A stretch of 64,000 nt of DNA, from positions 1 through 64,000 of the forward strand of contig JASGUC010000014.1 in NCBI GenBank assembly GCA_030057915.1, read 5' to 3'. Positions 22,650 through 37,466 of the stretch are shown here, piece by piece; position 1 is the first letter of the stretch, and each line of letters opens with the position of its first letter. The stretch comes from Pseudomonadota bacterium (GTDB taxonomy: Bacteria > Desulfobacterota > Syntrophia > Syntrophales > UBA8958). The notes beneath the pieces are model-generated. The model was not told the DNA's origin. It did no database searches and worked only from the letters and a program-made list of their open reading frames with translations. Made by a program: the position numbers and the translations under genes.

Positions 22650-23102
22650 ATGACCATCCTGTTTGTTTGCACGGCCAATATCGTCAGAAGCTTCATGGCG
22701 GAACGGATTCTGAAAGGGATGCTGGCGAAGGCCAAGCGCCGGGATATCATCGTCGCCTCCGCAGGCCTGCTGGACATGGGCGGCGCGCCCGGCGACCCCA
22801 CGGCGGCGAAAATCCTCGCCGAGCATAACTTCGACGGCGGCGGTCATCTGTCGAGGCCCTATTCGGAGTCTCTGCTGTCCCGGGCGGATTTGATCGTGGT
22901 CATGGAAAAGGCGCAGGAGGAGCGATTGCGGGCGGACTATCCCCAGCATGGGGAGAAATTGCGGCTGTTGAAGGCCTTCTCCCCGGAATATGACGGGGTC
23001 GCGGGCGACATCCGGGATCCCTACCGGCTCTCCTCTTATCATTATCGACTTTGTTTCGCCGAAATTTATACGGCGATTGCGGGGTTGTTGAAATGTATTT
23101 AG
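22650..23102 (+). CDS. Low-molecular-weight protein-tyrosine-phosphatase-like protein
   Basis: 150 residues. The active-site loop is C7-TANIV-R13-S (CX5RS) and the general-acid aspartate is D123 in RDPYRLS, as in LMW-PTPs. Such phosphatases commonly oppose Wzc-type tyrosine autokinases; a Wzc gene is 12 kb downstream. It overlaps the ExeA-like ATPase gene by 10 bp. Arsenate reductase is the main alternative but the DP motif favours phosphatase. Confidence 0.85.
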   Translation: MTILFVCTANIVRSFMAERILKGMLAKAKRRDIIVASAGLLDMGGAPGDPTAAKILAEHNFDGGGHLSRPYSESLLSRADLIVVMEKAQEERLRADYPQHGEKLRLLKAFSPEYDGVAGDIRDPYRLSSYHYRLCFAEIYTAIAGLLKCI

Positions 23103-23887
23103 ATTACTGGGGGCTCGACGCCTTTCCCTTCGAAAACGTGCCCGATCCCGATTTCATGTACTATTCGACGGAACATGAAGAGGCCCTGGTCCGGCTCATG
23201 TACGCGGTGAAGCGGATGAAGGGGGCGGCCCTTCTAACCGGGGAGATCGGAAGCGGCAAAACCACCCTGAGCCGCGTTTTCATTCAGCAGCTTCCGGACA
23301 GCGAATTCGACATCGGCCTCATCACCAACCCCTCCCTCAACGCCCTGGACTTCATCAAGGAGGTCCATTACCAGTTGGGCCTGGAATCCAAATCCAATTC
23401 CAAGTCCGAACTCCTGGTCATCCTCAACAACCGTCTGCTGGAAAACATAAACAATGGCCGCAGCACCCTCCTGATCATCGACGAGGCGCAGCTCATCTTC
23501 GGGGAGACCTTCGAGGAGATCAGGCTGCTGCTCAATTTTCAGATGAACGATCGTTTTCTCATGACCTTTCTCCTCATCGGCCAGCCGGAGCTGCGGGAGA
23601 TGATCCGAGGACACAAACAACTCGACCAGAGGATCGCCATCAGGTATCATCTCAATCCTCTGCCCGAGGAAGAGACGAGGAATTACATTCGCTTCCGCCT
23701 CGAAAAGGTGGGCGGCCGGGGCGAGACGTTCCAGGATGGGGCCTATCGGGCCATTTTCGACTATTCCGGCGGCATCCCCCGGAAGATCAACAATGTCTGC
23801 GATCTGTCGTTGCTCATCGGTTTCAGCATGAAGGTCAAGGAGATCGACGCGGCTCTGGTGCGGAAGGTGGTCAGGGATTCCCTGTAG
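23093..23887 (+). CDS. ExeA/GspA-like AAA ATPase
   Basis: 264 residues. The N-terminal MYLDYWGLDAFPFENVPDPDFMYYS is typical of ExeA-like ATPases, followed by Walker A GEIGSGKT (50-57) and Walker B LLIIDEAQ (126-133). This family includes ATPases of type II secretion and of exopolysaccharide/exosortase loci. There is no peptidoglycan-binding C-terminal domain, so it is the short form. The start overlaps the phosphatase gene; the two are probably co-translated. Confidence 0.85.
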   Translation: MYLDYWGLDAFPFENVPDPDFMYYSTEHEEALVRLMYAVKRMKGAALLTGEIGSGKTTLSRVFIQQLPDSEFDIGLITNPSLNALDFIKEVHYQLGLESKSNSKSELLVILNNRLLENINNGRSTLLIIDEAQLIFGETFEEIRLLLNFQMNDRFLMTFLLIGQPELREMIRGHKQLDQRIAIRYHLNPLPEEETRNYIRFRLEKVGGRGETFQDGAYRAIFDYSGGIPRKINNVCDLSLLIGFSMKVKEIDAALVRKVVRDSL

Positions 23888-24160: not shown

Positions 24161-24448
24161 ATGAAAACAACAATCCACGACTGCCTCCTTGCCAACCCCG
24201 AGGTGGTGCTGCGGGAGGAGTTCGACAATGCCCACATCCTCTTCAATGCCGCAACGGGGGAAATGTTCGGCATCAACAACGTCGGCGCGCTCCTCTGGAA
24301 TCATCTCGACGGGCGGCACAGCCTCGATGACCTGGTGGAAATAGTCGCCGCGCATTGCGAAGCGCCTCCTCCCGAGGCCAAGAGCCATATCGAGGCGTTT
24401 ATACGCACCGTCCTGGAGTTCGGGCTGGCAGGCCATGCCGCCGCATGA
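24161..24448 (+). CDS. PqqD-like peptide-recognition protein (RRE)
   Basis: 95 residues. The winged-helix RiPP recognition element pattern is clear: VVLREEFDNAHILFNAATGEMFGINNVGALLWNHLDG, then a helix-turn-helix with LDDLVEIVAA and a C-terminal helix. In known systems PqqD-like proteins bind the leader of a ribosomal peptide and present it to a radical SAM enzyme. The radical SAM gene follows after 7 bp. There is no strong ribosome binding site, and the start lies just behind a repeat element. Confidence 0.85.
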   Translation: MKTTIHDCLLANPEVVLREEFDNAHILFNAATGEMFGINNVGALLWNHLDGRHSLDDLVEIVAAHCEAPPPEAKSHIEAFIRTVLEFGLAGHAAA

Positions 24449-24455
24449 GGGAATC

Positions 24456-25604
24456 ATGAATGTCCCGTTGATGAAAACCCCCCGCAATGTGAATATCGAC
24501 ATCACCTCCCGCTGCAATCTCCGGTGCGCCTATTGCAGCTTTTTCTCCGGACCGGGGGATGTGAACGACGACCTGCCGTTGGATTCCTGGCTGCCCTTCA
24601 TCGACGCGCTGGGACGCCACCGGGTGCTGAACGTCATCCTTTCCGGCGGGGAGCCATTCTGCCGTCCGGACCTGCGGGAGATCATCTCCGCCATCACGGC
24701 CAATAACATGCGATTTTCCGTGCTTAGCAACGGCGTCCTCATCGACGAGGAAACGGCCTCCTTCCTGGCCTCAACCCGGCGTTGCGATCATGTCCAGGTA
24801 TCCATCGACGGGGCAATCGATACCACCCACGACGCCTTTCGCGGGGAAGGAAATTTTCTCAAGGCCCTGCGGGGCGTCAAGGCCCTGCAATCACATCAGG
24901 TCCCCGTGACGGTACGGGTCACCATCCATCGGAAAAATGTCATGGAGCTGCCGGACATCGCCCGGTTTCTCCTGGAAGACCTCGGCCTCCCCTCCTTTTC
25001 CACCAATTCGGCCTCCCACATGGGCTTGTGCCGGAGAAACGCCGCCCAGACCCAGCTCACCGTCGCCGAACAGTCCCTGGCCATGGCGACCCTCCTGACG
25101 CTCCAGGCCAAATACCACAACCGGATCAGCGCCACGGCAGGCCCCCTGGCCAATGCGCGGCAATGGCTGGAGATGGAGCGGTCCCGGCGGGAGAGGCGGG
25201 AGCAGCCCCGGGACCGGGGCTTCCTCACGGGGTGCGGCGGACCCATGGAAACCCTTTCCATCCGTTCCGACGGCGCCATCGTTCCCTGCTCCCAGTTGCC
25301 CCACATGATCCTGGGCAGGATCGACCGGGACGATCTTGGCGAGGTATGGCGAGGGCATCCGACCCTGCAAAGCTTCCGACGACGCTTCGAGATCCCCCTG
25401 ACCTCCTTCGCCTTTTGCCGGGATTGCCCCTATCTTCCCTACTGCACGGGCAATTGTCCGGCCATCGCCTACAACCTCACCGGCCGGGTCCATCATCCCT
25501 CCCCCGATTCTTGCCTAAGAGATTTCCTCGCCCAGGGAGGGCGGCTGCCCGAGGACAACGCCCGCATCGTCGCCCAGGAAGATTTTCCCCTTGACCGAAC
25601 TTGA
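24456..25604 (+). CDS. Radical SAM/SPASM peptide-modifying enzyme
   Basis: 382 residues from ATG 24456 (GAGGG just upstream; ATG 24435 is in frame but overlaps the PqqD-like gene). The AdoMet 4Fe-4S motif is C20-NLR-C24-AY-C27. Then ILSGGEPF (SAM contact) and a C-terminal SPASM region with GCGGP, VPCSQ, CRDCPYLPYCTGNCP and a last Cys in DSCL, enough for auxiliary clusters. SPASM proteins modify ribosomal peptides (thioether or C-C links). Neighbouring PqqD-like and Cys-rich precursor genes make these peptides its probable substrates. Confidence 0.88.
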   Translation: MNVPLMKTPRNVNIDITSRCNLRCAYCSFFSGPGDVNDDLPLDSWLPFIDALGRHRVLNVILSGGEPFCRPDLREIISAITANNMRFSVLSNGVLIDEETASFLASTRRCDHVQVSIDGAIDTTHDAFRGEGNFLKALRGVKALQSHQVPVTVRVTIHRKNVMELPDIARFLLEDLGLPSFSTNSASHMGLCRRNAAQTQLTVAEQSLAMATLLTLQAKYHNRISATAGPLANARQWLEMERSRRERREQPRDRGFLTGCGGPMETLSIRSDGAIVPCSQLPHMILGRIDRDDLGEVWRGHPTLQSFRRRFEIPLTSFAFCRDCPYLPYCTGNCPAIAYNLTGRVHHPSPDSCLRDFLAQGGRLPEDNARIVAQEDFPLDRT

Positions 25605-25647
25605 ACCACGGATTATTAATCTTCCAGCAAGAAGACAATTATGGCTT

Positions 25648-25689
25648 GAGACCTTTGAAAAACGACCTGCCTTGTCAGGCCGGGCAGGT
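25648..25689. repeat. GAGACC-family fragment
   Basis: One end only: GAGACCTTTGAAAAACGACC followed by a short CCTTGTCAGGCCGGG core. It lies between the radical SAM gene and the Tat-like PqqD gene. Confidence 0.6.
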
Positions 25690-25711
25690 TAGCCTCGAGG
25701 GGGGATGGATC

Positions 25712-26107
25712 ATGAACATCCAGAGAAGATCGCTTTTCAAGGTTGCGGCGGGGGTAGCGCTGGGCGTCGTCGGCCTCTCCTTTTCAAGGAATGATACCGG
25801 TATCCCAAGGGATCTCTGGCGGGAAATGCGCCATGGCCTCTGGATGCACGCCGCCCCGACCAGAAATCCGGATATCGTGTCGGAAAACATCGGCGGAGAG
25901 ACGATCCTCCATTCCCGATCCCAGGGTGCGGCCATCCTGAAACTCAACGCCACCGCCGGGTTCATCTGGGCCCGGTGCGACGGCAGGCGCGACTTTCAGG
26001 CTATCGTTCGAGACGTAAGCGGCCGCTTCGATGTCGCCCCCGCCCGCTGCGGCCGGGACGTCCTCATGGCGGTATTGAACATGCGGCGCCGGGGCCTGTT
26101 GCTGTAG
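25712..26107 (+). CDS. PqqD-like protein with Tat-like N-terminus
   Basis: 131 residues. The N-terminus MNIQRRSLFKVAAGVALGVVG has a twin-arginine-like RRSLFK (5-10) followed by a hydrophobic stretch (11-23). The rest is a PqqD/RRE-like fold: IVSENIGGETILHSRSQGAAILKLNATAGFIWARCDG, then a helical tail. A recognition domain behind a possible export or anchor signal is unusual, since precursor binding normally happens in the cytoplasm. It may tether the maturation machinery to the membrane. GAGGGGGGATGG precedes the ATG. It stands directly before the two precursor genes. Confidence 0.72.
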   Translation: MNIQRRSLFKVAAGVALGVVGLSFSRNDTGIPRDLWREMRHGLWMHAAPTRNPDIVSENIGGETILHSRSQGAAILKLNATAGFIWARCDGRRDFQAIVRDVSGRFDVAPARCGRDVLMAVLNMRRRGLLL

Positions 26108-26137
26108 CGAACCTTCAATCCCGGGAGACCAGGGAAA

Positions 26138-26286
26138 AAGGCGGCGGTATGGATCGGTGAGATCTTCCAGATCAGTCACGCCTCAAAGGAGAGAGGATAT
26201 GGGCGCGGACGACGATTCAAAAACCAAACTTCCCTATGAGCCACCACGGATCTTCGACCTTTTCTCCTCCCCGGCCTATGCCCAGC
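26138..26286 (+). repeat. 149-bp direct repeat, first copy (5' leader and leader-peptide codons)
   Basis: Covers the upstream hairpin, ribosome binding site and first 29 codons of the first Cys-rich peptide gene. The second copy at 26533-26681 differs at only two positions (26180 and 26215), while the sequences following the repeats diverge strongly. Confidence 0.95.
26157..26179 (+). promoter_or_regulatory. Hairpin upstream of first precursor gene
   Basis: GTGA-GATCT-TCC-AGATC-AG-TCAC forms a stem of 5 plus 4 pairs with a two-base bulge. It lies just before CCTCAAAGGAGAGAGG, the ribosome binding site, and is repeated unchanged upstream of the second gene. Confidence 0.45.
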
Positions 26287-26531
26287 AGACCGCTGATGTG
26301 AAGAGGACGTGTAATACGGGCGGCTCTCCGGGCGGGGAATGCCGCGCCGGCGGGGCGGCTGCCGACGGCAATTGTCAAAATGGCGCCACCGCATCCGATC
26401 AATGCAGAACCGGCCAAGCGCCGGCCGTGCCAACATGCTCGGTGGGAAGCTTCCCCAACAAGGCCTGTCAGACTGGATTCCTGGCCTTCGGCGTGCGGTG
26501 CACTGTGGGAGCCTTCCCAAGAATCTTTTGA
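26199..26531 (+). CDS. Cys-rich repeat peptide 1, predicted RiPP precursor
   Basis: 110 residues. A 30-residue leader with KLPYEPPRIFDL and SSPAYAQ is followed by a core with seven cysteines at 38, 48, 59, 69, 80, 90 and 101, so spacing alternates 10 and 11. Every cysteine has Gly at +3 (CxxG). The core is rich in Gly, Ala, Ser and Asn. There is no signal peptide. It sits behind radical SAM and PqqD-like genes and has an AAAGGAGAGAGG ribosome binding site. Inference: the leader is bound by a PqqD-like protein and cysteines are cross-linked by radical chemistry. A frame open upstream (from 26157) is not supported by a ribosome binding site. Confidence 0.82.
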   Translation: MGADDDSKTKLPYEPPRIFDLFSSPAYAQQTADVKRTCNTGGSPGGECRAGGAAADGNCQNGATASDQCRTGQAPAVPTCSVGSFPNKACQTGFLAFGVRCTVGAFPRIF

Positions 26532-26532
26532 C

Positions 26533-26681
26533 AAGGCGGCGGTATGGATCGGTGAGATCTTCCAGATCAGTCACACCTCAAAGGAGAGAGGATATGGGCG
26601 CGGACGACAATTCAAAAACCAAACTTCCCTATGAGCCACCACGGATCTTCGACCTTTTCTCCTCCCCGGCCTATGCCCAGC
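26533..26681 (+). repeat. 149-bp direct repeat, second copy
   Basis: Second copy of 26138-26286, offset by 395 bp, with the same hairpin, ribosome binding site and leader codons. It starts directly after the stop codon of peptide 1. Confidence 0.95.
26552..26574 (+). promoter_or_regulatory. Hairpin upstream of second precursor gene
   Basis: Identical copy of the hairpin at 26157-26179, here in the short gap between the two precursor genes; it could attenuate or insulate expression of the second gene. Confidence 0.45.
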
Positions 26682-27016
26682 CGAGTGATGTTCTCGATCC
26701 TACGTTGAAGAAATGCGCTGCTGGCGGAAGTGTAGCCTCTCTCTGTTCCACCGGCGGCTCGCCGGCCCAGGAATGCCAATCCGGCGGGGCGGCCACAGGA
26801 GGCAAATGCCAAAGCGGCAGCACCGCTTCCCAGCAATGCAATCCCGGCAGCGCCCCCACCGGGGGGAAATGCCAGGGGGGAAGCTTTCCCGTCGGGGTGT
26901 GCCGGCCGGGAAGCGCCGCCGCGGGGGGGCAGTGCCAGGAAGGAAGCGCCGCGGGGGGCCAGTGCAAGAAGGGCAGCGCCGTCTTCAAGTCCTCCCTAAC
27001 GGATGCGGACAGTTGA
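26594..27016 (+). CDS. Cys-rich repeat peptide 2, predicted RiPP precursor
   Basis: 140 residues. The leader is identical to peptide 1 over 29 residues except D6 to N. The core has nine cysteines at 41, 51, 61, 72, 82, 93, 103, 114 and 124 (spacing 10 or 11), each followed by Gly at +3, giving a unit such as CQSGSTASQQ. Cores of the two peptides are alike in pattern but not in sequence, and differ in repeat number. No signal peptide or membrane segment. The regular 21-residue double unit suggests a solenoid-like or laddered product after modification; that is inference. Confidence 0.82.
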   Translation: MGADDNSKTKLPYEPPRIFDLFSSPAYAQPSDVLDPTLKKCAAGGSVASLCSTGGSPAQECQSGGAATGGKCQSGSTASQQCNPGSAPTGGKCQGGSFPVGVCRPGSAAAGGQCQEGSAAGGQCKKGSAVFKSSLTDADS

Positions 27017-27215
27017 GTTCCGAGGACGGATGACGTCCCCACCGCCTCTTGGTCCGTCCGGGACGGGATCGTAAAAAACCGCGAATCGCCCCCCTTGGAA
27101 GGGGCGCCTCAATGGGGATCACCTGCGGGCTCGGCGTCCCCCAGCAGAAGGTTTTGCCTGAGTGGTTAATTGAGACGGATCGCCTGCGGGCTTGGCGTCC
27201 CCCAGCCGTCCCCTG
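27017..27215. other. Convergent intergenic region with 30-bp direct repeat and hairpin
   Basis: Between the precursor genes (plus) and the HprK-like gene (minus). CGCCCCCCTTGGAAGGGGCG at 27087-27106 is an inverted repeat that may end transcription. A 30-bp word including CCTGCGGGCTCGGCGTCCCC occurs at 27116-27145 and 27177-27206 with two differences. No gene is evident. Confidence 0.6.
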
Positions 27216-28211
27216 TCATGCCGCCACGAACTCCCAGAAACCGCCGTCCCGGCGGAAATAGAGATCGGCGGCGGGAACCGCCCCACAGAGCGCATGACAG
27301 AACTCGAAGGCCCGCCTCTTCAACGACGCCTCCATCAATCCGTAACCGTGCACATGATCGGCCAGAAGCTCCATGCAGGCGTAGCGCCGGTCCCGGGGCG
27401 TCATCCGGGTCCGGGCGGCCTGGTGGAGAAAGACGATCCGCCGCAATTGCTCCCGCTGGAGACGCCACCGCCTGGGTCTTTCCCGGGCTATGCCCACCTG
27501 GGTGAACGGAGTGGCATGGATGATGAACCCGTCCTCTCCCGCCTCGATCAAGGTGGCATCGTCGGACAGCACGGTCTCCCCTGGAGACAGGGCAGCGATC
27601 GTGGACTTCCCCGCCCCCGAGCGACCGAGAAACAGATAGCCCCCCCCGCCCCGGCGCCTCTTGATGCCGGCCCCATGGGCCAGGAGGCGGTTTTTACCGA
27701 CCATGGCCAGGCAGACAAACACGAAAGCAAGCTTCCATATCGTCGCCGGTACATGAAGCGCCGCTTTCGCGTGGAAGATGTAAATCACCCCCCGGTTGGC
27801 GGGTCCGTCGAGGATCAGACAGCCGTTCAAGAAGCCCACCGCCGTCGCGGCGGTGTCCATGACGCCGGGAAAGACCTCTTCCATCCGGTCTCCAAGGGCC
27901 GCCGCCCAAGGGGAGGCCTGCCGCTCGAAAAGCGCGGGTTCGCTGCCGAAGCGCCGCGGGTAGCTCCGTTCGCAATCGTAATGGACGCGACACTCCAGCA
28001 TGGCCTTGCTTCTGGGGGAGACAAGAAATCCGCTCCAGAGCGGTTCGATTTCAGCGAGGATATGCTCCGCGGCCTCGCCGTGGGCAACAAGATCGATGCG
28101 GACCCCGGCGATGGCGACGGCGATCCTTACATGATTAGGATTTCTCAGTCGCTTCGCTCCTTCGAAATGACATCCGGGTAGGCTCGCGCTCCTCGAAATG
28201 ACATTTTTCAA
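27216..28211 (-). CDS. HPr kinase-like P-loop protein of the RiPP locus
   Basis: 331 residues if TTG 28211 is the start. The P-loop is GRSGAGKS (196-203) within LFLGRSGAGKSTIAALSPG, followed by LSDDATLI, as in HprK/Ser kinase-like ATPases found beside PqqD and radical SAM genes. The N-terminal 26 or so codons read through a repeat element; between 28211 and Met71 there is no in-frame ATG or GTG, so the original start may have been replaced by the repeat. It overlaps the upstream radical SAM gene by 77 bp within that repeat. Family resemblance to SynChlorMet-type ScmC proteins is recalled, not tested. Confidence 0.75.
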   Translation of the reverse strand: MKNVISRSASLPGCHFEGAKRLRNPNHVRIAVAIAGVRIDLVAHGEAAEHILAEIEPLWSGFLVSPRSKAMLECRVHYDCERSYPRRFGSEPALFERQASPWAAALGDRMEEVFPGVMDTAATAVGFLNGCLILDGPANRGVIYIFHAKAALHVPATIWKLAFVFVCLAMVGKNRLLAHGAGIKRRRGGGGYLFLGRSGAGKSTIAALSPGETVLSDDATLIEAGEDGFIIHATPFTQVGIARERPRRWRLQREQLRRIVFLHQAARTRMTPRDRRYACMELLADHVHGYGLMEASLKRRAFEFCHALCGAVPAADLYFRRDGGFWEFVAA

Positions 28212-29328
28212 TACCGGGTGCGTCGTAGAGGCGTGACGGGGGGAAGAGATTTTTATGCTCGGCCTCCCGGCACATGAAAAACGGGCTCCCGAGGTCGCCG
28301 TCGGCGGCGTAGGCGCAGGCCCGGCAGGCCCCCAGGCATCGGTACTTGAAGATGCACCGCCCGCAGACCCCGGCGAGCCGGGAAGGGATGTCCTCCCTTA
28401 GCCGCCGCAAAATGGGGTGTCGGCGCCAGATCTCCCGGATGTCGTCCGTGGCGATATTGCCCATGTTGAGTTCCGTCTCCGTCTGCCCGATGCCGCAGAG
28501 CGACACCGTCCCGTCGGCGAGGATTCCCAGGATATTGAGGATGTGGCATTCGTAGAGGGGGGCGCCGGTGATCCTTTCCAGGGACTTCAGGCCGATGGGC
28601 ATGCTTAGGGAAATGTCCGTTTTGTATTCGCCGTTCAGCTCCCCATCGATCCAGCGATCGATGCGGATGAGTTCCTCGATCGCCACGTTTTCCCCGCGCT
28701 GGAAGACCATCTTCCCCCGTCCCGTGGGCATGATGGGATTGATTTTCAGCGAGGGCACCCCAAGATCGTCGCAGAGGGCCGCCAACGGTTCGATCTCCGC
28801 GACGTTTTCCTCATACAGGCTCATGATGACCTGCCTGGCAACCCCCTCCGCCCCGAGGAGGCGCAGGGCCTCCACGGCCAGGGCATGGGCGCCCGGAGAA
28901 CCGCGGAGCCGGTCGTGCTGGTCCGCCCGGGCCGCGTCCAGGCTGATCGACACCTGGCGGACCCCGCATTCCCCGATGACCCGCGCCATATCCGCATCGA
29001 TCATCGTCCCGTTGCTCTCGATATCGACGATCAGGTCCTCCAGTTGGAGAAACCTTAGCAGGGCGAGGATGTCGCCGCGGAGGAAGGGCTCGCCGCCGGT
29101 GAGCTTCACCGTCCCCAGGCCCAGTTCCTTCGCCCGAATCACGGCCTCCGTAAGGACGGCGAAATCCACCAGTTTCTCCGTCCCGGCCCCCGGCGGGGGC
29201 GGGGCGACCCAGCAATGCCGGCACCGGAGATTGCAACGTTCGGAAAGATATAGATAAAGACTGCCCAGGAGGGGTGCATCAGGCGTAGCTTGTAGCTGAT
29301 AGCTGGTGGCTCGTGGGATTTTGCACAT
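28135..29328 (-). CDS. Radical SAM/SPASM peptide-modifying enzyme, second
   Basis: 397 residues. The AdoMet cluster motif is C32-NLR-C36-RH-C39, then VKLTGGEPFLRGD and a SPASM region with YECHIL, SLCGIG, CGRCIFKYRCLGACRACAY and FMCREAEH. It differs clearly from the first enzyme. ATG 29328 has AGGAG seven bases upstream. Codons 1-17 lie inside a 100-bp direct repeat, and the last 22 residues (CHFEEREPTRMSFRRSEATEKS, read as two blocks) derive from another repeat, so both ends appear remodelled. It faces the precursor genes from the opposite strand. Confidence 0.85.
   Translation of the reverse strand: MCKIPRATSYQLQATPDAPLLGSLYLYLSERCNLRCRHCWVAPPPPGAGTEKLVDFAVLTEAVIRAKELGLGTVKLTGGEPFLRGDILALLRFLQLEDLIVDIESNGTMIDADMARVIGECGVRQVSISLDAARADQHDRLRGSPGAHALAVEALRLLGAEGVARQVIMSLYEENVAEIEPLAALCDDLGVPSLKINPIMPTGRGKMVFQRGENVAIEELIRIDRWIDGELNGEYKTDISLSMPIGLKSLERITGAPLYECHILNILGILADGTVSLCGIGQTETELNMGNIATDDIREIWRRHPILRRLREDIPSRLAGVCGRCIFKYRCLGACRACAYAADGDLGSPFFMCREAEHKNLFPPSRLYDAPGIEKCHFEEREPTRMSFRRSEATEKS
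28137..28214. repeat. GAGACC-family fragment, core type 2 (GTCATTTCGA), at a gene junction
   Basis: Two copies of the half-unit ending CTCCTTCGAAATGACAT and CTCCTCGAAATGACATTTTTCA. Both the last 22 codons of the radical SAM gene (28135-29328) and the first codons of the HprK-like gene are made of this repeat, each in its own frame. Confidence 0.85.
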
Positions 29329-29382
29329 ATATGTTCTCCTATGAGCTATGACCTATGAGCTATGACCTATGACCTAATTCAT
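29277..29382. repeat. 100-bp direct repeat, first copy, rich in AGCTATGACCT
   Basis: Contains the start region of the second radical SAM gene and the 3' end of the PqqD-like gene. Words CATCAGGCGTAGCTTG, GTGGCTCGTGGGATTTTGC and tandem CTATGAGCTATGACCTATGA are shared with the copy at 30062-30153. Confidence 0.85.
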
Positions 29383-29683
29383 TGGCCTCGTCTTTCCGCA
29401 AAAACCCCAGGGCCGCCAGTTCCCGCAGGAATGCCGTCGCATCTGCGGTGACCGCTTCCCCATCCGCATCGGGATACAGAACCTTCAAGGCCGTCACGAT
29501 CTCCTCCCTGGTTTTCCCGCCGTCGCAGAGTTCGTAGATCCGCACGCCGGTCCCGTTTATGTACCTGAGGTTGCCGGAGTGAGGATCGAAGAGGAAGGCC
29601 CCGTCTTCCTCCTTTCTGAACACCGCCTCCGGGTTGGGACTCAGAAAATCCATGTAGTCGTTCGGTTTTCCTTCTTCGTTCAT
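29360..29683 (-). CDS. PqqD-like peptide-recognition protein, third
   Basis: 107 residues. The RRE pattern is visible in AVFRKEEDGAFLFDPHSGNLRYINGTGVRIYELCDGG, then KTREEIVTALKVLYPD and a C-terminal helix. The last residues (NELGHRS) fall in the flanking direct repeat. It is just upstream of the second radical SAM gene on the same strand and probably its leader-binding partner. GGGAG lies before the ATG. Confidence 0.83.
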   Translation of the reverse strand: MNEEGKPNDYMDFLSPNPEAVFRKEEDGAFLFDPHSGNLRYINGTGVRIYELCDGGKTREEIVTALKVLYPDADGEAVTADATAFLRELAALGFLRKDEANELGHRS

Positions 29684-29785
29684 CGCGACTCCCCGCCTCG
29701 GACAACCCAGAAAACGACGCCCCGTCCATTACGGCGCGCCGCTGCCTCGGGACCTCCGGAAATCTCGCTTATCCATCCCTCGCCC

Positions 29786-29945
29786 GAGAGCTTTGAATAA
29801 CGGCCATTTTTGTCATTTCGACCCAAGGGATAAATCCATATCCCGAATGCCATGAGAGACCTTAGGATTTCTCAGTCGCTTCGCTCCTTCGCAATGACAT
29901 CTGGGTAGGCTCGCGCTCCTCGAAATGACATTTTTCAAAGGTCTC
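29786..29945. repeat. GAGACC-family element, core type 2, full length
   Basis: 160 bp from GAGAGCTTTGAATAA to TTTTTCAAAGGTCTC. Inner units read TGTCATTTCGACCCAAGGG and CTCGAAATGACA, able to pair with each other. It is the longest complete copy in the window. Confidence 0.9.
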
Positions 29946-29956
29946 CGCCCGCCGTG

Positions 29957-30030
29957 GGGCCTTTGAAAATCTTCGCTCTGCCATGCTTAGGATTTCTCGT
30001 CGCTCGCGCTCCTCGAAATGACATTTTTGG
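29957..30030. repeat. GAGACC-family fragment, core type 2
   Basis: Begins GGGGCCTTTGAAAATC and ends CTCCTCGAAATGACATTTTTGG, lacking the intact far end. It follows the previous copy by 11 bp. Confidence 0.75.
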
Positions 30031-30061
30031 AGGAAAATGCCTGCCGCCGTCGGGTGATCTT

Positions 30062-30153
30062 CATCAGGCGTAGCTTGGAGCTGATAGCCGGTGGCTCGTG
30101 GGATTTTGCACATATATTTTTTCCTATGAGCTATGAGCTATGACCTAATTCAT
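30062..30153. repeat. 100-bp direct repeat, second copy
   Basis: Near-identical to 29277-29382, slightly shorter in the CTATGAGCTATGACC part. It carries a duplicate of the radical SAM start codon region with a weaker upstream site (AGGAAAAAATAT). The two copies flank the PqqD-like gene. Confidence 0.85.
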
Positions 30154-30242
30154 CGTTCGTTGGGCCTGCCACAGGCGTCGGGGGTTAGTCAAGATATATT
30201 TCCCTTTTTCCCGCGCCCCTGCTATCATGCGCCACCAACAGC

Positions 30243-30370
30243 TTCGCAGGAGCGCGAGCCTACCCTCATGTCATTTCGAAGGAGCGAAGCGACGAGAAAT
30301 CCTAAGATCCCTCATTGCCTTCGGGGCATGGATTTCTCCCTTCGGCCGAAATGACAAAAAAGGAGTCGAA
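30243..30370. repeat. Core-type-2 repeat unit preceding a start codon
   Basis: Contains GTCATTTCGAAGGAGCGAAG and the inverted CCCTTCGGCCGAAATGAC. Its last words, AAGGAGTCGAAATGACAAAA, give the ribosome binding site and ATG of the next gene. Confidence 0.75.
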
Positions 30371-31573
30371 ATGACAAAAGTGGAAGGCGCCATCGAACGG
30401 ACCCTGTTTTCCCTGTTGAACCAGGCCCCGGCGCTCGACCTCCCGGAGGTGCTCGCGGCCCCGGAATTGCTTCCCTTTCTGGATAAAAACGGCGTCGCCG
30501 GGACGTTTTACCACGCGCTGCGAAAGTCCGGATGGAAAGAACCACTCCCGGGGGGCGTTTATGAGGCCCTCCGGGGACGATTCAACTCTCAGATCGCCCG
30601 GAACATGGCCTGCGCCGCGGCGGCCAGGGAGACGTTCCGACTGCTGCATCGGGAGGGCATCCCCTTCTTGGTCCTGAAGGGTCTCGCCCTGGCGGAGAAT
30701 GTTTACCCCCACTTCGGCATGCGCACAACCTCGGACCTGGATGTCCTCATCCGCCGGGAAGACCTGTTGCGGGCCGACGCGGCCCTCGGCGGGGCCGGCT
30801 ATCATGCCCGGGACAGCACCCCCCGGCGGGCGCTGCTCAACCCCCCGGGGTATCTGGCCAGCCTCGAATTCCACCGTCCCGGCAGCGTCTTTTCCTACCT
30901 CCACCTGCACTGGCATCTCGTCAACACCTCGGTCCCCGCCTTCGGTTTCATCGAAAACATCGACATGGAGAGGATCTGGAATCGATCCCGGACGGGCTTG
31001 GTCGCGTGTGCCGAAGCGCGCCTGCTGGGTCCGGAACATCTGATCATCTACCTGTGCGAACATGGGCTGCGGGTCGGTCACTCCTTCGACCGCCTGAATC
31101 TGATCTGCGATCTCTACTACGCCATCAAGAACCCGGGTGCCCCCCTCGACTGGGACCTGGCGGCCGCCGAGGCCAAGGAACTGGGGCTCCGGAATTTCGT
31201 TTATCTCGGCCTGAGGATCGTCCAGGCATACGGAGGAAAGGCGCTACTCGACGACGCGACCATGGAGAAATTCGCCCCCCCTTCCCTCTCCGTCTGGGAG
31301 CGCCTTTTCCTGGCCATGCAGTTACATGGCCTCCGGTTGCGGGGGAGCAGCTTTCTCGTTTACCTGGCCGCGAGCAAAGGGGCCTTCGGCAAGGGCCGTC
31401 TCATCCTCCGCACCCTCTTTCCTCCCCGCCCGATCCTGGCTCAGCGGTCTTGGCGATGGGCGGACGCCCATCCGACGACTCTGTATTTCCGGAGGATAGG
31501 GGAGACAATGACGGTGCTGATCCGGCTGGCCAGACGCCTCGCCCGGCAGCCGGCCCGGAGGAGCAATCTTTAA
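30371..31573 (+). CDS. Nucleotidyltransferase-fold family protein (NTP_transf_5-like)
   Basis: 400 residues. LVLKGLALAENVYPHFGMRTTSDLDVLI contains the conserved KG (103-104) and the metal-binding D122 and D124 of the uncharacterised nucleotidyltransferase family often found in capsule and RiPP loci. The reaction is unknown. ATG 30371 sits in repeat-like sequence (AAGGAGTCGAAATGAC), with a good ribosome binding site; the frame extends upstream to 30227 but only through the repeat. It could belong to the RiPP locus or to the polysaccharide locus. Confidence 0.78.
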   Translation: MTKVEGAIERTLFSLLNQAPALDLPEVLAAPELLPFLDKNGVAGTFYHALRKSGWKEPLPGGVYEALRGRFNSQIARNMACAAAARETFRLLHREGIPFLVLKGLALAENVYPHFGMRTTSDLDVLIRREDLLRADAALGGAGYHARDSTPRRALLNPPGYLASLEFHRPGSVFSYLHLHWHLVNTSVPAFGFIENIDMERIWNRSRTGLVACAEARLLGPEHLIIYLCEHGLRVGHSFDRLNLICDLYYAIKNPGAPLDWDLAAAEAKELGLRNFVYLGLRIVQAYGGKALLDDATMEKFAPPSLSVWERLFLAMQLHGLRLRGSSFLVYLAASKGAFGKGRLILRTLFPPRPILAQRSWRWADAHPTTLYFRRIGETMTVLIRLARRLARQPARRSNL

Positions 31574-31582
31574 CAAACTGCC

Positions 31583-31632
31583 ATGATTAGGATTTCTCGT
31601 TGCTCGCGCTCCTCGAAATGACATCTTTCAGA
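31583..31632. repeat. Core-type-2 repeat fragment
   Basis: CCATGATTAGGATTTCTCG to CTCGAAATGACATCTTTCAG, the right half of a GAGACC-family element, directly after the nucleotidyltransferase gene. A further unit (GATTTCTCCCTTCGGTCGAAATGAC-like) is at 31705-31732. Confidence 0.75.
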
Positions 31633-31732
31633 TGACGGCGTCCTCCGGACGGCTCAGGGGACGGCCGGGGCCGACGGCCTCGTTACGGGGTGATCTCGTC
31701 GAAAGATTTCTCCCTTCGGTCGAAATGACAAA

Positions 31733-31802
31733 TTGGACCTTGGACTTTGGACCTTGGACTTTGGACCTTGGACTTTGGATTTTGGACCTCGGACTTTGGA
31801 CT
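31733..31802. repeat. Five tandem copies of a 14-bp unit
   Basis: TTGGACCTTGGACT three times (31733, 31747, 31761), then TTGGATTTTGGACC and TCGGACTTTGGACT. A 7-bp sub-period TTGGACY is evident. It lies between core-type-2 repeat units and downstream of the HD-GYP gene. Confidence 0.95.
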
Positions 31803-31840
31803 CCCTTCGGTCGAAATGACAATAAAGGAGACGCTCCGTG

Positions 31841-33052
31841 TTACGGGGCGGTCTCGTCGAAGGAGACGCTCCGTTCGATGTTGAGAATGGGATGGTTCCG
31901 CAAATCCAGCATCCGGCCCGGTTCGATGGGCCTTCCCTTTTCGTCGCTCACGAGCCTGAGCACCGGCTTCATGGGATTGCCCCGATTCGTGGCCACGACC
32001 CGGCCGATATTGCGGTTGTTGAGCCGGACATAGGCGCCTACGGGGAAGATGGAGATCTCGTCCAGGAAGGCCTTGATGATTCGGGGATCAAAGAGATTGC
32101 TCCGGGATCCGATCAACTCCTTGATGGATTCCGTTTGCAGCAGGGGTTTTTTGTGAGGGCGGTGGTGGGTCATGGCCTCATAGGAGTCGCAAATGCCGAT
32201 AATCTGAGCATATTCACATATCTCCCCACCTTTGAGGCCCCGGGGATAGCCCTGGCCGTTCGCCCGTTCCTGATGCTCGTAGATCGCCCGGAGCATCTTC
32301 GGATAGACATCCCGGTGGGCCGCTAGGATCTCCACCGCCGTTTCCGGATGCCTGCGGATCAGATTCATCTCCTCTTCCGTGAGCCTCCCCTCCTTCTTGA
32401 GGACGGCGTCGGGGACCAGGAACATTCCCACATCGTGGAGCAGCGCCGCCAGTCCAAGCTCGATGAGGCGGGTCTTCTCGTAGCCCATGCCCTGGGCCAC
32501 CTTCAACCCGTAAACCATGACGTTGACGGGGGAAGAGAGGTAATAATCGTCTTCCCGCTCATAATCGACCGTCAGTTGGTAGATCTGGGAGGTGACATCC
32601 ACCGAGGAGTTCAGGATATTGTTGACATAGACCAGCGCGGGCTCCAGGGGGAAGCTCTCGCGGGCCAGCACGCTCCGGCGGATCAGGGCCATGTATTCTT
32701 TCGCCGCCAGGTAGATCTTCCTCACGGCCGCTCCCTCATGGGCCGGCAAGGACGATTCGTGATCCGGCGGCAACGCCCGGCCTCTGCCGTCCGGGCCTAA
32801 AATTCTCTCGAAGAGGCCCGGCCCCGACCCTTCATCGTAACCCCCGGACGACACCATGTCGGCGGCGGCCGAGGTCGTTCTCGCGCCTTTTCCCGTTGGG
32901 GATTGGAGGCTCGGGATATCGATGTCTCTCATTCTCAAGAGACCCCTTTCTCCGTTGACGATCTTTCCCTGGGGAATGAGCAGCGGCTGCTTGTCGCCGT
33001 TGCCATTTACCAAGGGCTTGATTTTGCCCTTGACGATATCCGAGGCTCGCAT
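31841..33052 (-). CDS. HD-GYP domain protein
   Basis: 403 residues. An N-terminal segment of about 150 residues has no known domain. The HD-GYP domain shows H206-D207 (LLHDVG), H235 (IRRHPE), H260 and GYP (268-270) in EHQERANGQGYP. HD-GYP proteins usually hydrolyse cyclic di-GMP. The position where most members have the first histidine (HSxNVA-like) reads SSPVNVM around 173-179, so one metal ligand may be missing. It is divergent from the wza operon and may regulate it. A partial duplicate of its 3' end (word GTTACGGGGTGATCTCGTCG) is at 31682-31701. Confidence 0.87.
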   Translation of the reverse strand: MRASDIVKGKIKPLVNGNGDKQPLLIPQGKIVNGERGLLRMRDIDIPSLQSPTGKGARTTSAAADMVSSGGYDEGSGPGLFERILGPDGRGRALPPDHESSLPAHEGAAVRKIYLAAKEYMALIRRSVLARESFPLEPALVYVNNILNSSVDVTSQIYQLTVDYEREDDYYLSSPVNVMVYGLKVAQGMGYEKTRLIELGLAALLHDVGMFLVPDAVLKKEGRLTEEEMNLIRRHPETAVEILAAHRDVYPKMLRAIYEHQERANGQGYPRGLKGGEICEYAQIIGICDSYEAMTHHRPHKKPLLQTESIKELIGSRSNLFDPRIIKAFLDEISIFPVGAYVRLNNRNIGRVVATNRGNPMKPVLRLVSDEKGRPIEPGRMLDLRNHPILNIERSVSFDETAP

Positions 33053-33413: not shown

Positions 33414-34634
33414 ATGGAGAATAATATCAAGCGGATATGTGCGGCAATCCTGATCGCCCTGCTTGGATGCTCCCTTACGGCCTGCTTTCCTTTCCTGGAA
33501 GACACCGGTACCCCCATCAAGGAATACGAGGCAAAAAAGGCCGGACCTCTGGATGAGGCCCGTCTTCAGAAGGAACATCTGGAGCGCCTCGAAGAACTTT
33601 CCCGGCTCTCCCGGGTGAAGGGCAACAGCGTCTTTACGGAAAAACGGGGCGTGGCGGACTACATTGTCGGCCCGGGCGACGTCCTCGCCGTCAATTTCTG
33701 GACGATCGCCGTCGCCGGCGCCCAGACCTTCGAAGGATTCAAGCAGATCACCTACAATGTCGAGGTGCGGCCGGACGGCAAGATCTCCTACATGTACGGC
33801 GACGACATCCCGGTTAGCGGCCGGACGGTTCATGAGATCCAGGAACTGCTCCGGAACGATCTGAAAAAATACTTCCGCAATCCCCGCCTCGAGGTCCTGG
33901 TCAAGGAATACAAGAGCAAGAGCGCCACCCTCTTTGGTCAGATCAACGTCCTGCCCACCGGGACTTCCGGACCCGGACGCTATCCCCTCACCGGGAAGAT
34001 GACGATGATCGATCTCATCTCCAAGGCCGGCGGGGCCATCACCGGCCGGAGCGACTACACATCATTGCCCGGGGCGGCGGCGGCGGGTCAGCAGAACGTC
34101 GCCAACGCGGACCTCAAGAACGTGGAGCTGGTGCGCAAGGGTAAGAAATACACCGTCAACCTCTACAGCGCCATGTTTTACGGCGACGAGAAGCAAAACC
34201 CGGTAATCGACGACGGCGACATCATTACTGTCCCGGCCCTGCCATTCTTCGCCGATCGCGTCTATGTCATGGGACAGGTGGCCAGCGTGGGCATCTACCG
34301 CCTCCAGGACGCCCCGGATCTCCTTGCCGCCCTGGCCCTGGCCGGCAGTGTCACTCCCCTGGCGGTGAAATCGGACATCAAGGTGATCCGGGAATTCCGG
34401 GAGCGGAAGGGCAAACCGATCATCCTCTCCGCCAATTACAACGATATCCTCAAACGGGGCGACCTGGCCCAAAACATCAAGCTTCAGAGCGGCGACGTCG
34501 TCTATGTCCCCCGGATGTTCATCGGGGACATCAACGAATTCATCGCCAATACCACGCCGCTTCTCAATTATCTGCTGATCCCGGCTTCCTATCGCAATGA
34601 ATATGTCAAGGATCAGAACATCATGAGATGGTAA
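33414..34634 (+). CDS. Wza-like polysaccharide export lipoprotein
   Basis: 406 residues. The signal peptide ends at a lipobox LTAC with C24, so it is an outer-membrane lipoprotein. A Poly_export domain (VADYIVGPGDVLAVNFW to VEVLVKEYKSKSATLFGQ, about 80-180) is followed by SLBB-type segments, including DRVYVMGQVASVGIYRL. It forms the export channel partner of Wzc. GGAGG precedes the ATG. First gene of the operon, 18 bp before wzc. Confidence 0.9.
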   Translation: MENNIKRICAAILIALLGCSLTACFPFLEDTGTPIKEYEAKKAGPLDEARLQKEHLERLEELSRLSRVKGNSVFTEKRGVADYIVGPGDVLAVNFWTIAVAGAQTFEGFKQITYNVEVRPDGKISYMYGDDIPVSGRTVHEIQELLRNDLKKYFRNPRLEVLVKEYKSKSATLFGQINVLPTGTSGPGRYPLTGKMTMIDLISKAGGAITGRSDYTSLPGAAAAGQQNVANADLKNVELVRKGKKYTVNLYSAMFYGDEKQNPVIDDGDIITVPALPFFADRVYVMGQVASVGIYRLQDAPDLLAALALAGSVTPLAVKSDIKVIREFRERKGKPIILSANYNDILKRGDLAQNIKLQSGDVVYVPRMFIGDINEFIANTTPLLNYLLIPASYRNEYVKDQNIMRW

Positions 34635-34652: not shown

Positions 34653-37466
34653 ATGCTGAAATACGACCTCAACCTCAGGGAATACTGGCGGATCATCAAG
34701 CGCCGCAGATTCATCATCCTGTTCACCTGCATAATCATGGGGGTTTTCAGCCTGGTCTCGGCGATCCTCAACAAACCCGTTCCCATCTACAGAACCTCCG
34801 CCGCCGTCAAGGTGGAAAAGACCCAGTCCCTGATGGGCTTTGGCGCCCCAAGCTACGGAAGCGCCAATCTGGAAACCCAGACCATCATGATCAGGAGTTA
34901 TTACATCCTGGAGCTGACGGCCAAAAAGATGGGCTTGATTCCGGATAACCTCTCCTCCGAGGACATCCGGAACAATCCCAAATACATCGGCGTCATTCTC
35001 GATCTCAAGGACAAGGTAAGGGCGGAACAGGAGGGAGGAAGCGACCTGATCAATATCGAGGTTACCGCCAACGACGGCAAATTCGCCGCCCGTTTCGCCA
35101 ACGACCTGGCAGAGGTCTATCAGCGACAGCACACCCTGGATCTGAACCGCCGCACCATCGAGGGCAAGAGGTTCGTGGAAGGACAGTTCGCCGCCGCCAG
35201 GGAGAAGATGGTCAAATCGGAGGAGGCGATAAAGAAATTCCGGGAAGACAACAAGTGGACCTCCGTGGACTCGGAATCCACCTATACCTTAAACGAGGTG
35301 AAGCGCCTCAGGTCCCAATACAGTCAGGATCAAATCGTTCTGCAGAAGCTCCTTATCGCCGAACGGTCGTTGAGCGGCGCGGAGGACCAGCCCCTGACCT
35401 CGAGGATCAGCTTCTATTTCGAGGAGGCCTCCCCTCCCTACAAGGCCCTCAACGACAAGCTCGTGGGCTATATGACGGATCGGGATACGCTGCTGCTCAC
35501 CTATACGGACAATTTCCCCCAGATTCAGGCCATTCGCAGCCAGATCAACGACACCGTCGCCCGGATGCGGGTCCAGTTGAACCTTCAGAAAAACAGCCTG
35601 GCCGACAACCAGCAGATCCTCAGACGCCAAATCGCCGCCTTGGAGGAACAGTTCAAACGACTGCCGGAAAAAGGCCTGGAGCTGGCCAAGCTGGAACGGG
35701 AGATGGCCATCAACCGGGAGATTTACACCCTCCTGGAAAAGAAATATCATGAAATTCTCATCGCCGAGGCGGAAAAGCTCGAGGAGGTGAAGATCGTCAA
35801 ACCGGCCCTGGAACCCGGAGGACCGATCAATCCGCCGAAGATAGGCAACAATGCCGCCATCGGGACGCTTATGGGCCTCATCCTCGGGGTGGTCTTCGCC
35901 TTTCTCATCGAGACCTTCGACACCTCCATCGGGGCCATTGAAGAGGTGGAGGAATTCCTGGGCGTTCATGTCCTCGGGGTCATTCCCTTTGTCAGCCCGG
36001 AGGAGGTGCGCCTGCTCCTGAGCGATGACCAGGGACGGTTGACGGTGGAAGAAAGCAAACTTCCCCGCTACACCCGGATGGCGTCCCATTTCGTCCCTAC
36101 CTCCACCCTCGCGGAGAGCTATAAGGCCTTTCGCACCAGTCTCAACTTCGCCTGCATGGAAAACCATTACAAGACCCTGGCCCTGACCAGCTCCTCCCCC
36201 AGCGAGGGCAAAACCTCGACCATCGTCAATCTGGCCCTGACCATGGCCCAGACGGGCCACAAGGTCCTCCTCATCGACGGCGACCTGCGCCGCCCGGTAA
36301 TCGCCGGCCTGTTCGGGATCGAGCAAGCCCCGGGATTGACGGACGTGATCATGGGCAATTATGAGTGGCGAAACGTGGTCCGGAATATCTCCGACTTCAT
36401 GATGGGCCAGATGTCCGTGGAGGAGGTCATGCTCACCCCTGGCCTGGACAACCTCAACATCATCACCAGCGGCGTCCACACCCCCAATCCCGCCGAGATC
36501 ATCGGCTCCAAGGGCATCGCCGAGTTCATGCGCCAGGTGCGGGCGGAATACGACATGGTGCTGGTGGACGCCCCGCCCGTCCTGTCCGCCACGGATGCGG
36601 CCCTGTGGAGTTCCCAGGTCGATGCCACCGTCCTGGTCTATCAGGTCGGCAAGATCGCCCGGGGAGCGCTGAAACGGGCCAAGATGCAGTTGGATGCCAT
36701 CAAGACCAATATCGTCGGGGTGGTCCTCAACGGCATCCGCGCCGAGATCAGCGCCGATTTCACGTATCATGATTATTACTACCACTATCGCTACGGCGAC
36801 GACAGAGGAAAGAAACGCCCCTGGTACAAACCCATCCTCGAGAAGCTTGGTTTCGACCGGATCATGAATTACGGCTTTGCCCACAAGAAAGGCAACCAAC
36901 AGCGGCGAACAAGGAAGGGTAGCGGCATGAAGAACGGATCGGGGTCGGCGACCGCGGCGTCGGTTTCCGGCGCTCAAGGCGCGGAGACATGGGCGCGGCT
37001 GTCGTCCGCGGCCCCGCTGCCCCCGGATGAAAAGAACGGGACCGTGGAAGAGGCCAAGGCGGGCGGGGGCTGGAAAAGATTCCTGCCGCTGATAAAGATC
37101 GTCGTCGCGGTCCTCGCGCTCCTCTTTCTCGTCCTGGGGATCCTCTACCAGGGAGGCTTCCTGAAGGCCTTTTGGCCCGGCGGCAAAGGCGCGGCCGCTC
37201 CTAAATCTTCGTTGCGGCCCGCGGCGAATTACGTTGTCGTCGCCGCGCCCCTGCCGGCAAGCCCGTCGTCCGCCCCTCTCGCCGTGGGCGTCAGGGAGGC
37301 GGCAACAACCCTCCCCGCTCCGACGGGCGCCGTCAGGGAGGCGGCAACAACCCTCCCCGCTCCGACGGGCGCCGTCAAAAACGCCTCCAGGGAAACGGGG
37401 CGAATCCTTACGGAGGCGCGAAACCTCGACGAGACCCGGCGCGAGGCATTCGCGGCAGGCAGATGA
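34653..37466 (+). CDS. Wzc-like chain-length determinant/tyrosine autokinase with C-terminal membrane extension
   Basis: 937 residues. Wzz domain with a first membrane helix (about 20-40), a long coiled-coil periplasmic part, a second helix (about 410-430), then a BY-kinase: Walker A SSSPSEGKTS (512-521), LLIDGDLRRP, and VLVDAPP, plus a tyrosine cluster (YHDYYYHYRY, about 707-716). Normal proteins of this family end here; this one continues 200 residues with a third hydrophobic helix (about 812-833) and two copies of VREAATTLPAPTGA. It controls export and chain length and would be reversed by the LMW phosphatase. Confidence 0.9.
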   Translation: MLKYDLNLREYWRIIKRRRFIILFTCIIMGVFSLVSAILNKPVPIYRTSAAVKVEKTQSLMGFGAPSYGSANLETQTIMIRSYYILELTAKKMGLIPDNLSSEDIRNNPKYIGVILDLKDKVRAEQEGGSDLINIEVTANDGKFAARFANDLAEVYQRQHTLDLNRRTIEGKRFVEGQFAAAREKMVKSEEAIKKFREDNKWTSVDSESTYTLNEVKRLRSQYSQDQIVLQKLLIAERSLSGAEDQPLTSRISFYFEEASPPYKALNDKLVGYMTDRDTLLLTYTDNFPQIQAIRSQINDTVARMRVQLNLQKNSLADNQQILRRQIAALEEQFKRLPEKGLELAKLEREMAINREIYTLLEKKYHEILIAEAEKLEEVKIVKPALEPGGPINPPKIGNNAAIGTLMGLILGVVFAFLIETFDTSIGAIEEVEEFLGVHVLGVIPFVSPEEVRLLLSDDQGRLTVEESKLPRYTRMASHFVPTSTLAESYKAFRTSLNFACMENHYKTLALTSSSPSEGKTSTIVNLALTMAQTGHKVLLIDGDLRRPVIAGLFGIEQAPGLTDVIMGNYEWRNVVRNISDFMMGQMSVEEVMLTPGLDNLNIITSGVHTPNPAEIIGSKGIAEFMRQVRAEYDMVLVDAPPVLSATDAALWSSQVDATVLVYQVGKIARGALKRAKMQLDAIKTNIVGVVLNGIRAEISADFTYHDYYYHYRYGDDRGKKRPWYKPILEKLGFDRIMNYGFAHKKGNQQRRTRKGSGMKNGSGSATAASVSGAQGAETWARLSSAAPLPPDEKNGTVEEAKAGGGWKRFLPLIKIVVAVLALLFLVLGILYQGGFLKAFWPGGKGAAAPKSSLRPAANYVVVAAPLPASPSSAPLAVGVREAATTLPAPTGAVREAATTLPAPTGAVKNASRETGRILTEARNLDETRREAFAAGR
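37290..37373 (+). repeat. Two tandem 42-bp units in the wzc tail
   Basis: Two identical 42-bp copies (37290-37331 and 37332-37373) in frame, encoding the doubled 14-residue segment near the Wzc C-terminus. Identity suggests a recent duplication. Confidence 0.95.

Follow-up and report, generated by a model that had tools for sequence, protein, structure and literature searches.

A divergent SynChlorMet-type peptide cassette with regular CxxG precursors and a Tat-signal-bearing PqqD protein as its proposed export arm

The first 64,000 nucleotides of contig JASGUC010000014.1 (assembly GCA_030057915.1; hereafter the window), from a Pseudomonadota bacterium of anoxic settings placed in the Syntrophales, contain at positions 24161 to 31573 a cassette for a ribosomally synthesised and post-translationally modified peptide (RiPP) that is almost certainly of the SynChlorMet (Scm) type. 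In the explanation that fits best, to which as a whole we would give a probability of roughly 55%, it is a divergent Scm system with an added export arm. The Scm kind of cassette is known; what is added here is the pair formed by a PqqD-like protein with a twin-arginine translocation (Tat) signal, called Tat-PqqD below, and a precursor leader that ends in AxA, a signal-peptidase-like motif.

In Tat-PqqD (25712..26107, plus strand) the twin-arginine signal MNIQRRSLFKVAAGVALGVVGLSF precedes a PqqD domain of the RiPP recognition element (RRE) type (PF05402, 50.7 bits). All 22 homologues whose N-terminus is intact show an [RK]RxF/L/M motif and, after it, a hydrophobic stretch free of charges, although identity to the protein of the window drops to 16-28% in some of them and a few have KR for RR; the weakest match (genome G009) reads MSNISRRSLLTASLALGAASIFPSLKLSEA. 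None of the ScmD and third PqqD proteins of the same loci has both an RR-type motif and a hydrophobic stretch. The model of the RRE part is of high confidence, its best structural matches being the lasso peptide RREs TbiB1 and TfuB1, each bound to its leader, and the host genome encodes both TatC and signal peptidase I. The protein is a proposed export chaperone, for which leader binding and Tat-dependent export are predicted.

The leaders found at Tat-PqqD loci follow, with little variation, the pattern YEPPxI[FI]DL...A[YHFQ]A[QDAG]. Its first half belongs to a wider theme, as YxxPx[LIVMF] fits 69 of the 73 unique leaders collected and YxxPx[LIV] is common in classic Scm leaders, which, however, end differently and are often Gly-rich there (e.g. 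AKGSG). Of the unique leaders, 28 come from genomes that also encode a Tat-PqqD (adjacent to it in 26 cases), and all 28 have AxA; of the other 45, none does. The motif had been defined on a first set of loci, and the pairing also holds in all four loci found later (L191, L206, L213 and L253), one of which (in G129) was found by the Tat-PqqD profile alone; as L253 reads AYAG, the position that follows AxA can vary. In a survey of the order, Tat-PqqD was present in 21/21 genomes with AxA-type precursors and in 0/9 with classic precursors only. One genome (G526) holds one locus of each type; in two others contig ends intervene, Tat-PqqD lying at one with no precursor assembled (G025) and a precursor being cut by one (G004).

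What would such a pair serve to export? Precursor 1 (26199..26531, plus strand, 110 residues) consists of the leader KLPYEPPRIFDLFSSPAYAQ and a core of seven CxxG units whose Cys are spaced by 10, 11, 10, 11, 10 and 11 residues; precursor 2 (26594..27016, plus strand, 140 residues) has the same kind of leader and nine CxxG units (10, 10, 11, 10, 11, 10, 11 and 10). Each of the 16 core Cys has Gly at +3, and the 14 spacings are without exception 10 or 11, as the initial annotation had stated, and none of 200,000 shuffles of each core equalled the observed count of Gly+3 or of such spacings. Across the sub-type (25 precursors, counting those of the window), Gly+3 follows 206 of 208 Cys, and a spacing of 10 or 11 is kept in 170 of 182 cases, whereas in classic Scm loci Gly+3 accompanies only 147 of 205 Cys (72% versus 99%); the sub-type of the window is the strictest form of the Scm CxxG rhythm. 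Besides Cys, Gly+3 is the sole near-invariant position of these cores, position +6 being Ala in 62% and Pro in 25% (either in 87%). The two precursor genes are nearly identical across upstream region and leader (26130-26310 and 26520-26705) and strongly diverged in their cores, a pattern that suggests a duplicated leader and cores that diversified.

Around the two precursors the cassette genes are arranged in two arms, and Pfam and NCBIfam searches bore out the gene content first proposed, i.e. two SPASM radical SAM enzymes, three PqqD proteins, an HprK-like protein and a nucleotidyltransferase. The ScmD-like PqqD protein (24161..24448, plus strand; PF05402, 53.5 bits; TIGR04248, 83.8 bits against a cut-off of 100) is likely the leader-binding RRE partner of ScmE (24456..25604, plus strand), a radical SAM/SPASM peptide maturase well over its cut-off (TIGR04250, 558.4 versus 400 bits), with the radical SAM motif CNLRCAYC and SPASM Cys at C260, C278, C321, C324, C330, C334 and C353 that are invariant in an alignment of 12 sequences. 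In the other arm, on the minus strand, lie an HprK/ScmC-like kinase (27216..28208; TIGR04249, 25.7 versus 125 bits), a ScmF-like radical SAM/SPASM maturase (28135..29328; PF04055, PF13186; TIGR04251, 316.9 versus 400 bits) and a third PqqD-like protein, PqqD3 (29360..29683; PF05402, 54.4 bits), which adjoins ScmF in relatives and is paired with the ScmF-like enzyme; a PF14907 nucleotidyltransferase (30371..31573, plus strand, 157.6 bits), recurrent in homologous loci, follows. Neither a transporter nor a peptidase gene was found in the cassette itself among its open reading frames (ORFs) and their NCBIfam and Pfam matches, and Rfam had no match within the window.

The likeness to Scm that had been noted was right. 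Besides ScmE, the ScmF-, ScmD- and ScmC-like proteins have the respective Scm models as their best families, albeit below cut-off, and these sub-cut-off matches occupy the right places in the cassette; the window ScmF takes a separate branch on its tree. Both precursors also fall short of the ScmA cut-off (TIGR04252, 30.8 and 11.7 versus 35 bits), as do precursors beside cut-off-passing ScmE elsewhere, so that this model is narrow. ScmE exceeds its cut-off in 16 of 60 relatives and in 18 of 395 genomes of the phylum, many of the surveyed genomes being metagenome-assembled. A contig search with the window ScmE as single query had no matches, whereas an alignment query brought up 80 loci, with record titles naming deltaproteobacteria, Nitrospirae, Aminicenantes, Omnitrophota, Chlorobiaceae, methanogenic archaea and others. 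Precursors were called by a fixed rule (a Yxx[PS] leader plus at least three CxxG), which called none in about half of these loci; those that it did call adjoin many of the 80, in archaea and several bacterial phyla, and the CxxG rhythm is therefore a trait of the Scm family. The initial annotation, which knew of no described precursor of this rhythm, had seen a real pattern, one that belongs to a precursor family found in many loci. A literature search, with thin coverage of subscription journals, found no paper describing the Scm cassette, which is known by name from TIGRFAMs/NCBIfam. Within the family, one classic locus (L059, G057) has six or more distinct ORFs for Cys-rich precursors, and a precursor branch beside the same enzymes (L061-L063, L227, L230, L231 and L238) has 14-18 irregularly spaced Cys, with adjacent Cys pairs in several precursors.

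The locus also contains repeats. Interspersed short repeats (e.g. TTAGGATTTCTCAGTCGCTTCGCTCCTTCGAAATGACA) lie in both orientations at 28135-28211, 29862-30028, 30248-30368 and 31578-31833; they occur at both ends of the ScmF-like ORF, of which they make up the 3' end, and form the 5' extensions of the HprK-like and nucleotidyltransferase ORFs, leaving both start codons uncertain. The annotated ScmF start is overlapped by an 86-nucleotide direct repeat (29277-29362 and 30062-30147) with 93% identity between its copies, and a tandem 14-nucleotide repeat, TTGGACCTTGGACT, lies downstream of the nucleotidyltransferase (31733-31815).

How might these parts work together? Two of the PqqD proteins would, as RREs, present the YxxPxI leader to the two SPASM enzymes, and these would most likely link each core Cys to the Cα of the Gly at +3, giving seven to nine unnested thioether rings of four residues each. 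The near-invariance of Gly+3 favours such a chain of Cys-Cα(Gly) rings, and so does the precedent of streptosactin, in which the SPASM enzyme GggB makes Cys31-Gly34 and Cys25-Ser28 alpha-thioethers (PMC8172795). By this analogy, the conversion of every core CxxG into such a ring has a probability just short of even. As in sactipeptides, a SPASM radical SAM maturase is present; the cores beside it have an invariant Cys, the predicted donor, and an invariant Gly at +3, the predicted acceptor. Of the multi-thioether ladder that had been proposed, the multiple thioethers remain plausible by analogy; linkage between repeats does not fit the streptosactin precedent, which points to unnested four-residue rings.

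Other radical SAM chemistry is a strong competitor, at somewhat less than an even chance: a ranthipeptide-type bond from Cys to a side chain, crosslinks between repeats or epimerisation, with Gly+3 as a turn or recognition residue. SPASM maturases are known for several such chemistries, i.e. Cys-side-chain links, crosslinks and epimerisation; position +6 is conserved as well, and the sequence leaves the chemistry unfixed. Yet Gly+3 is far more invariant than the other non-Cys core positions, the CxxG thioether is not without precedent, and among PDB sequences ScmE matches the sactisynthase SkfB best, though distantly. The idea that two radical SAM enzymes serve the alternating 10- and 11-residue spacings was dropped, since a locus of the same genus (L073 in G003, at 8925-9224) alternates without ScmE.

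Once modified, the precursor would be bound through the same leader motif by Tat-PqqD and taken as a hitchhiker through the Tat pore, after which the leader would be cut at AxA|Q by signal peptidase I or a protease like it. This hitchhiking with cleavage at AxA is a tentative proposal, nearly as probable as its opposite. In the fuller scenario, perhaps a one-in-three prospect, the RiPP would leave the cell on its own Tat-targeted PqqD, which would bind the leader of the cross-linked precursor and pull the folded cargo through the Tat pore; signal peptidase would cut an AxA site that consists of a c-region only, and the polythioether cargo, like beads on a string, would join the surface polysaccharide layer. 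Several observations weigh against the favoured explanation. The precursor has no hydrophobic signal region, which signal peptidase I normally requires; several Tat-PqqDs do not themselves show a clear cleavage site (in that of the window none is clear after the hydrophobic stretch) and may stay membrane-anchored; the Fisher test of the order survey (p = 7e-8) ignores phylogeny; and the co-occurrence of Tat-PqqD and AxA is partly shared ancestry, with three changes of the Tat label on the ScmE tree and two on that of ScmF. In addition, the G003 locus keeps Tat-PqqD, ScmF and a nine-CxxG precursor without ScmD and ScmE (in an assembly that is 82% complete), and so the two radical SAM enzymes are not always both needed.

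Could this simply be an ordinary Scm system? In that case the Tat-like N-terminus would be a membrane anchor, AxA would be cut by an unlinked protease, and there would be no hitchhiker export. The Scm family matches and the lack of a clear cleavage site in the window protein are in keeping with this, as is the low confidence of the modelled Tat-PqqD N-terminus. Such an account, however, must also accommodate the RR/KR motif and the perfect AxA pairing, and an RRE anchored by Tat or with its N-terminus inside would face outward, away from the enzymes; it keeps a substantial minority share of the probability. The hitchhiker proposal gains from the association of the Tat-PqqD/AxA pair with different radical SAM lineages, an argument that this PqqD and the leader are functionally linked. 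None of the papers covered by a literature search, mostly outside subscription journals, describes Tat export of a RiPP by an RRE/PqqD protein.

A further step, phosphorylation or other tailoring of the precursor, may fall to the HprK-like kinase together with the nucleotidyltransferase. The kinase has the motif H178...G195xxG198xG200-K201-S202...D216-D217, of which H178, G195, G198, G200, K201, D216 and D217 are invariant in 15 homologues, and which resembles that reported for BsfK (PMC10368454). The bsf lasso cluster combines the precursor kinase BsfK, which phosphorylates its own precursor in a reaction that BsfB1 speeds up, with an RRE (B1), a nucleotidyltransferase (N) and a YxxPxL leader, and the YxxPx[LIVMF] of the present leaders is the conserved lasso leader motif (PMC10368454). 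By analogy, the HprK-like protein may thus carry out a BsfK-like tailoring step.

Far less probable is that the peptides are unmodified structural repeats or metal-binding proteins and that the enzymes act elsewhere. Regular 10/11 repeats rich in Gly, Ser and Ala could suggest as much, and a match to a known unmodified structural family had been named at the outset as a finding that would speak against modification. Neither precursor, however, has a match in Pfam, and their profile has no credible match in the PDB; AlphaFold finds no fold for the unmodified core and leaves it disordered, at a mean pLDDT (predicted local distance difference test) of 42, with about 35 in the core and only the leader better. 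An unmodified fold is therefore not supported; moreover, the leader bears the RRE motif, and precursors adjoin the enzymes in most homologous loci with a recognised precursor. A lasso-like product, to which the shared B1, K and N genes and leader motif might point, was rejected as highly improbable, since ORF, NCBIfam and Pfam analysis found that the cassette has neither a B2 protease nor a cyclase gene, the core has repeated Cys and two radical SAM enzymes accompany it, and the Asn-synthase-like gene at 52797 most resembles an amidotransferase of the XrtA type.

The cassette sits inside a polysaccharide-export locus, a link on which the initial annotation was silent, as it was on the Tat signal, AxA, the YxxPxL leader and the precursor-kinase motif; its interpretation is partly supported. 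Upstream lies an XrtA-type (TIGR03015-like) ATPase (23081..23887, plus strand; 253.6 bits versus a cut-off of 324.5), which adjoins the cassette in relatives; beyond the nucleotidyltransferase follow an HD/HD-GYP-type protein (31841..33052, minus strand; PF13487), a Wza-like export protein (33414..34634, plus strand; PF02563 and SLBB) and a Wzc-like chain-length protein/tyrosine autokinase (34653..37466, plus strand; TIGR01007, 173.1 versus 108 bits). These four neighbours recur in relatives of several families, and a low-molecular-weight phosphatase also flanks the cassette. Two complete congeners that do not have the cassette contain no close orthologue of the ATPase, only paralogues 36-39% identical to it. 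The product would probably act at the cell surface, jointly with the polysaccharide that the flanking locus produces; a role at the surface or in the matrix is the likeliest reading, with the odds nevertheless somewhat against it. A link to exosortase was rejected, as no exosortase was found in the genome, and the XrtA-type ATPase is thus no evidence of PEP-CTERM sorting here. The XrtA-type amidotransferase (52797-55049; TIGR03108, 545.6 versus 816.9 bits) likewise lies in this genome without an exosortase match.

The locus predicts a product that can be checked, with one ring of -2 Da per CxxG, and offers a checkable export route and a link between a RiPP and polysaccharide export. Were RRE-mediated Tat hitchhiking true, it would explain how a cassette without a dedicated transporter releases a bulky cross-linked peptide, and a self-tagged peptide-binding chaperone would be a new way for a RiPP to leave the cell.

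Among known systems, the HPr-rel-A system (TIGR04352/TIGR04353) also joins an HprK-related to a PqqD-like protein, but the cassette is not a member (15.9 bits versus a cut-off of 200, and 29 versus 35). With the phosphorylated lasso clusters of the bsf type it shares the separate PqqD-family RRE, the YxxPxL leader, the HprK-like precursor kinase motif and the nucleotidyltransferase gene (PMC10368454), and it differs in having two SPASM enzymes and a Cys-repeat core in place of a lasso cyclase and B2 protease. Streptosactin (GggA/GggB) offers a SPASM radical SAM enzyme and the unnested CxxG/CxxS four-residue alpha-thioethers (PMC8172795), the kind of ring that is predicted here for CxxG; it has, however, two rings in a 14-mer as against seven to nine predicted ones, a different leader and no RRE, kinase or Tat parts. 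Closest is the Scm cassette (TIGR04248-TIGR04252), with its ScmE over cut-off, its ScmF-, ScmD-, ScmC- and ScmA-like proteins and its Cys-rich CxxG precursor, from which the present cassette departs in that only ScmE passes the curated cut-off, the genes form two arms, Gly+3 is nearly invariant, and Tat-PqqD, the AxA leader, a third PqqD protein and the PF14907 nucleotidyltransferase have been added.

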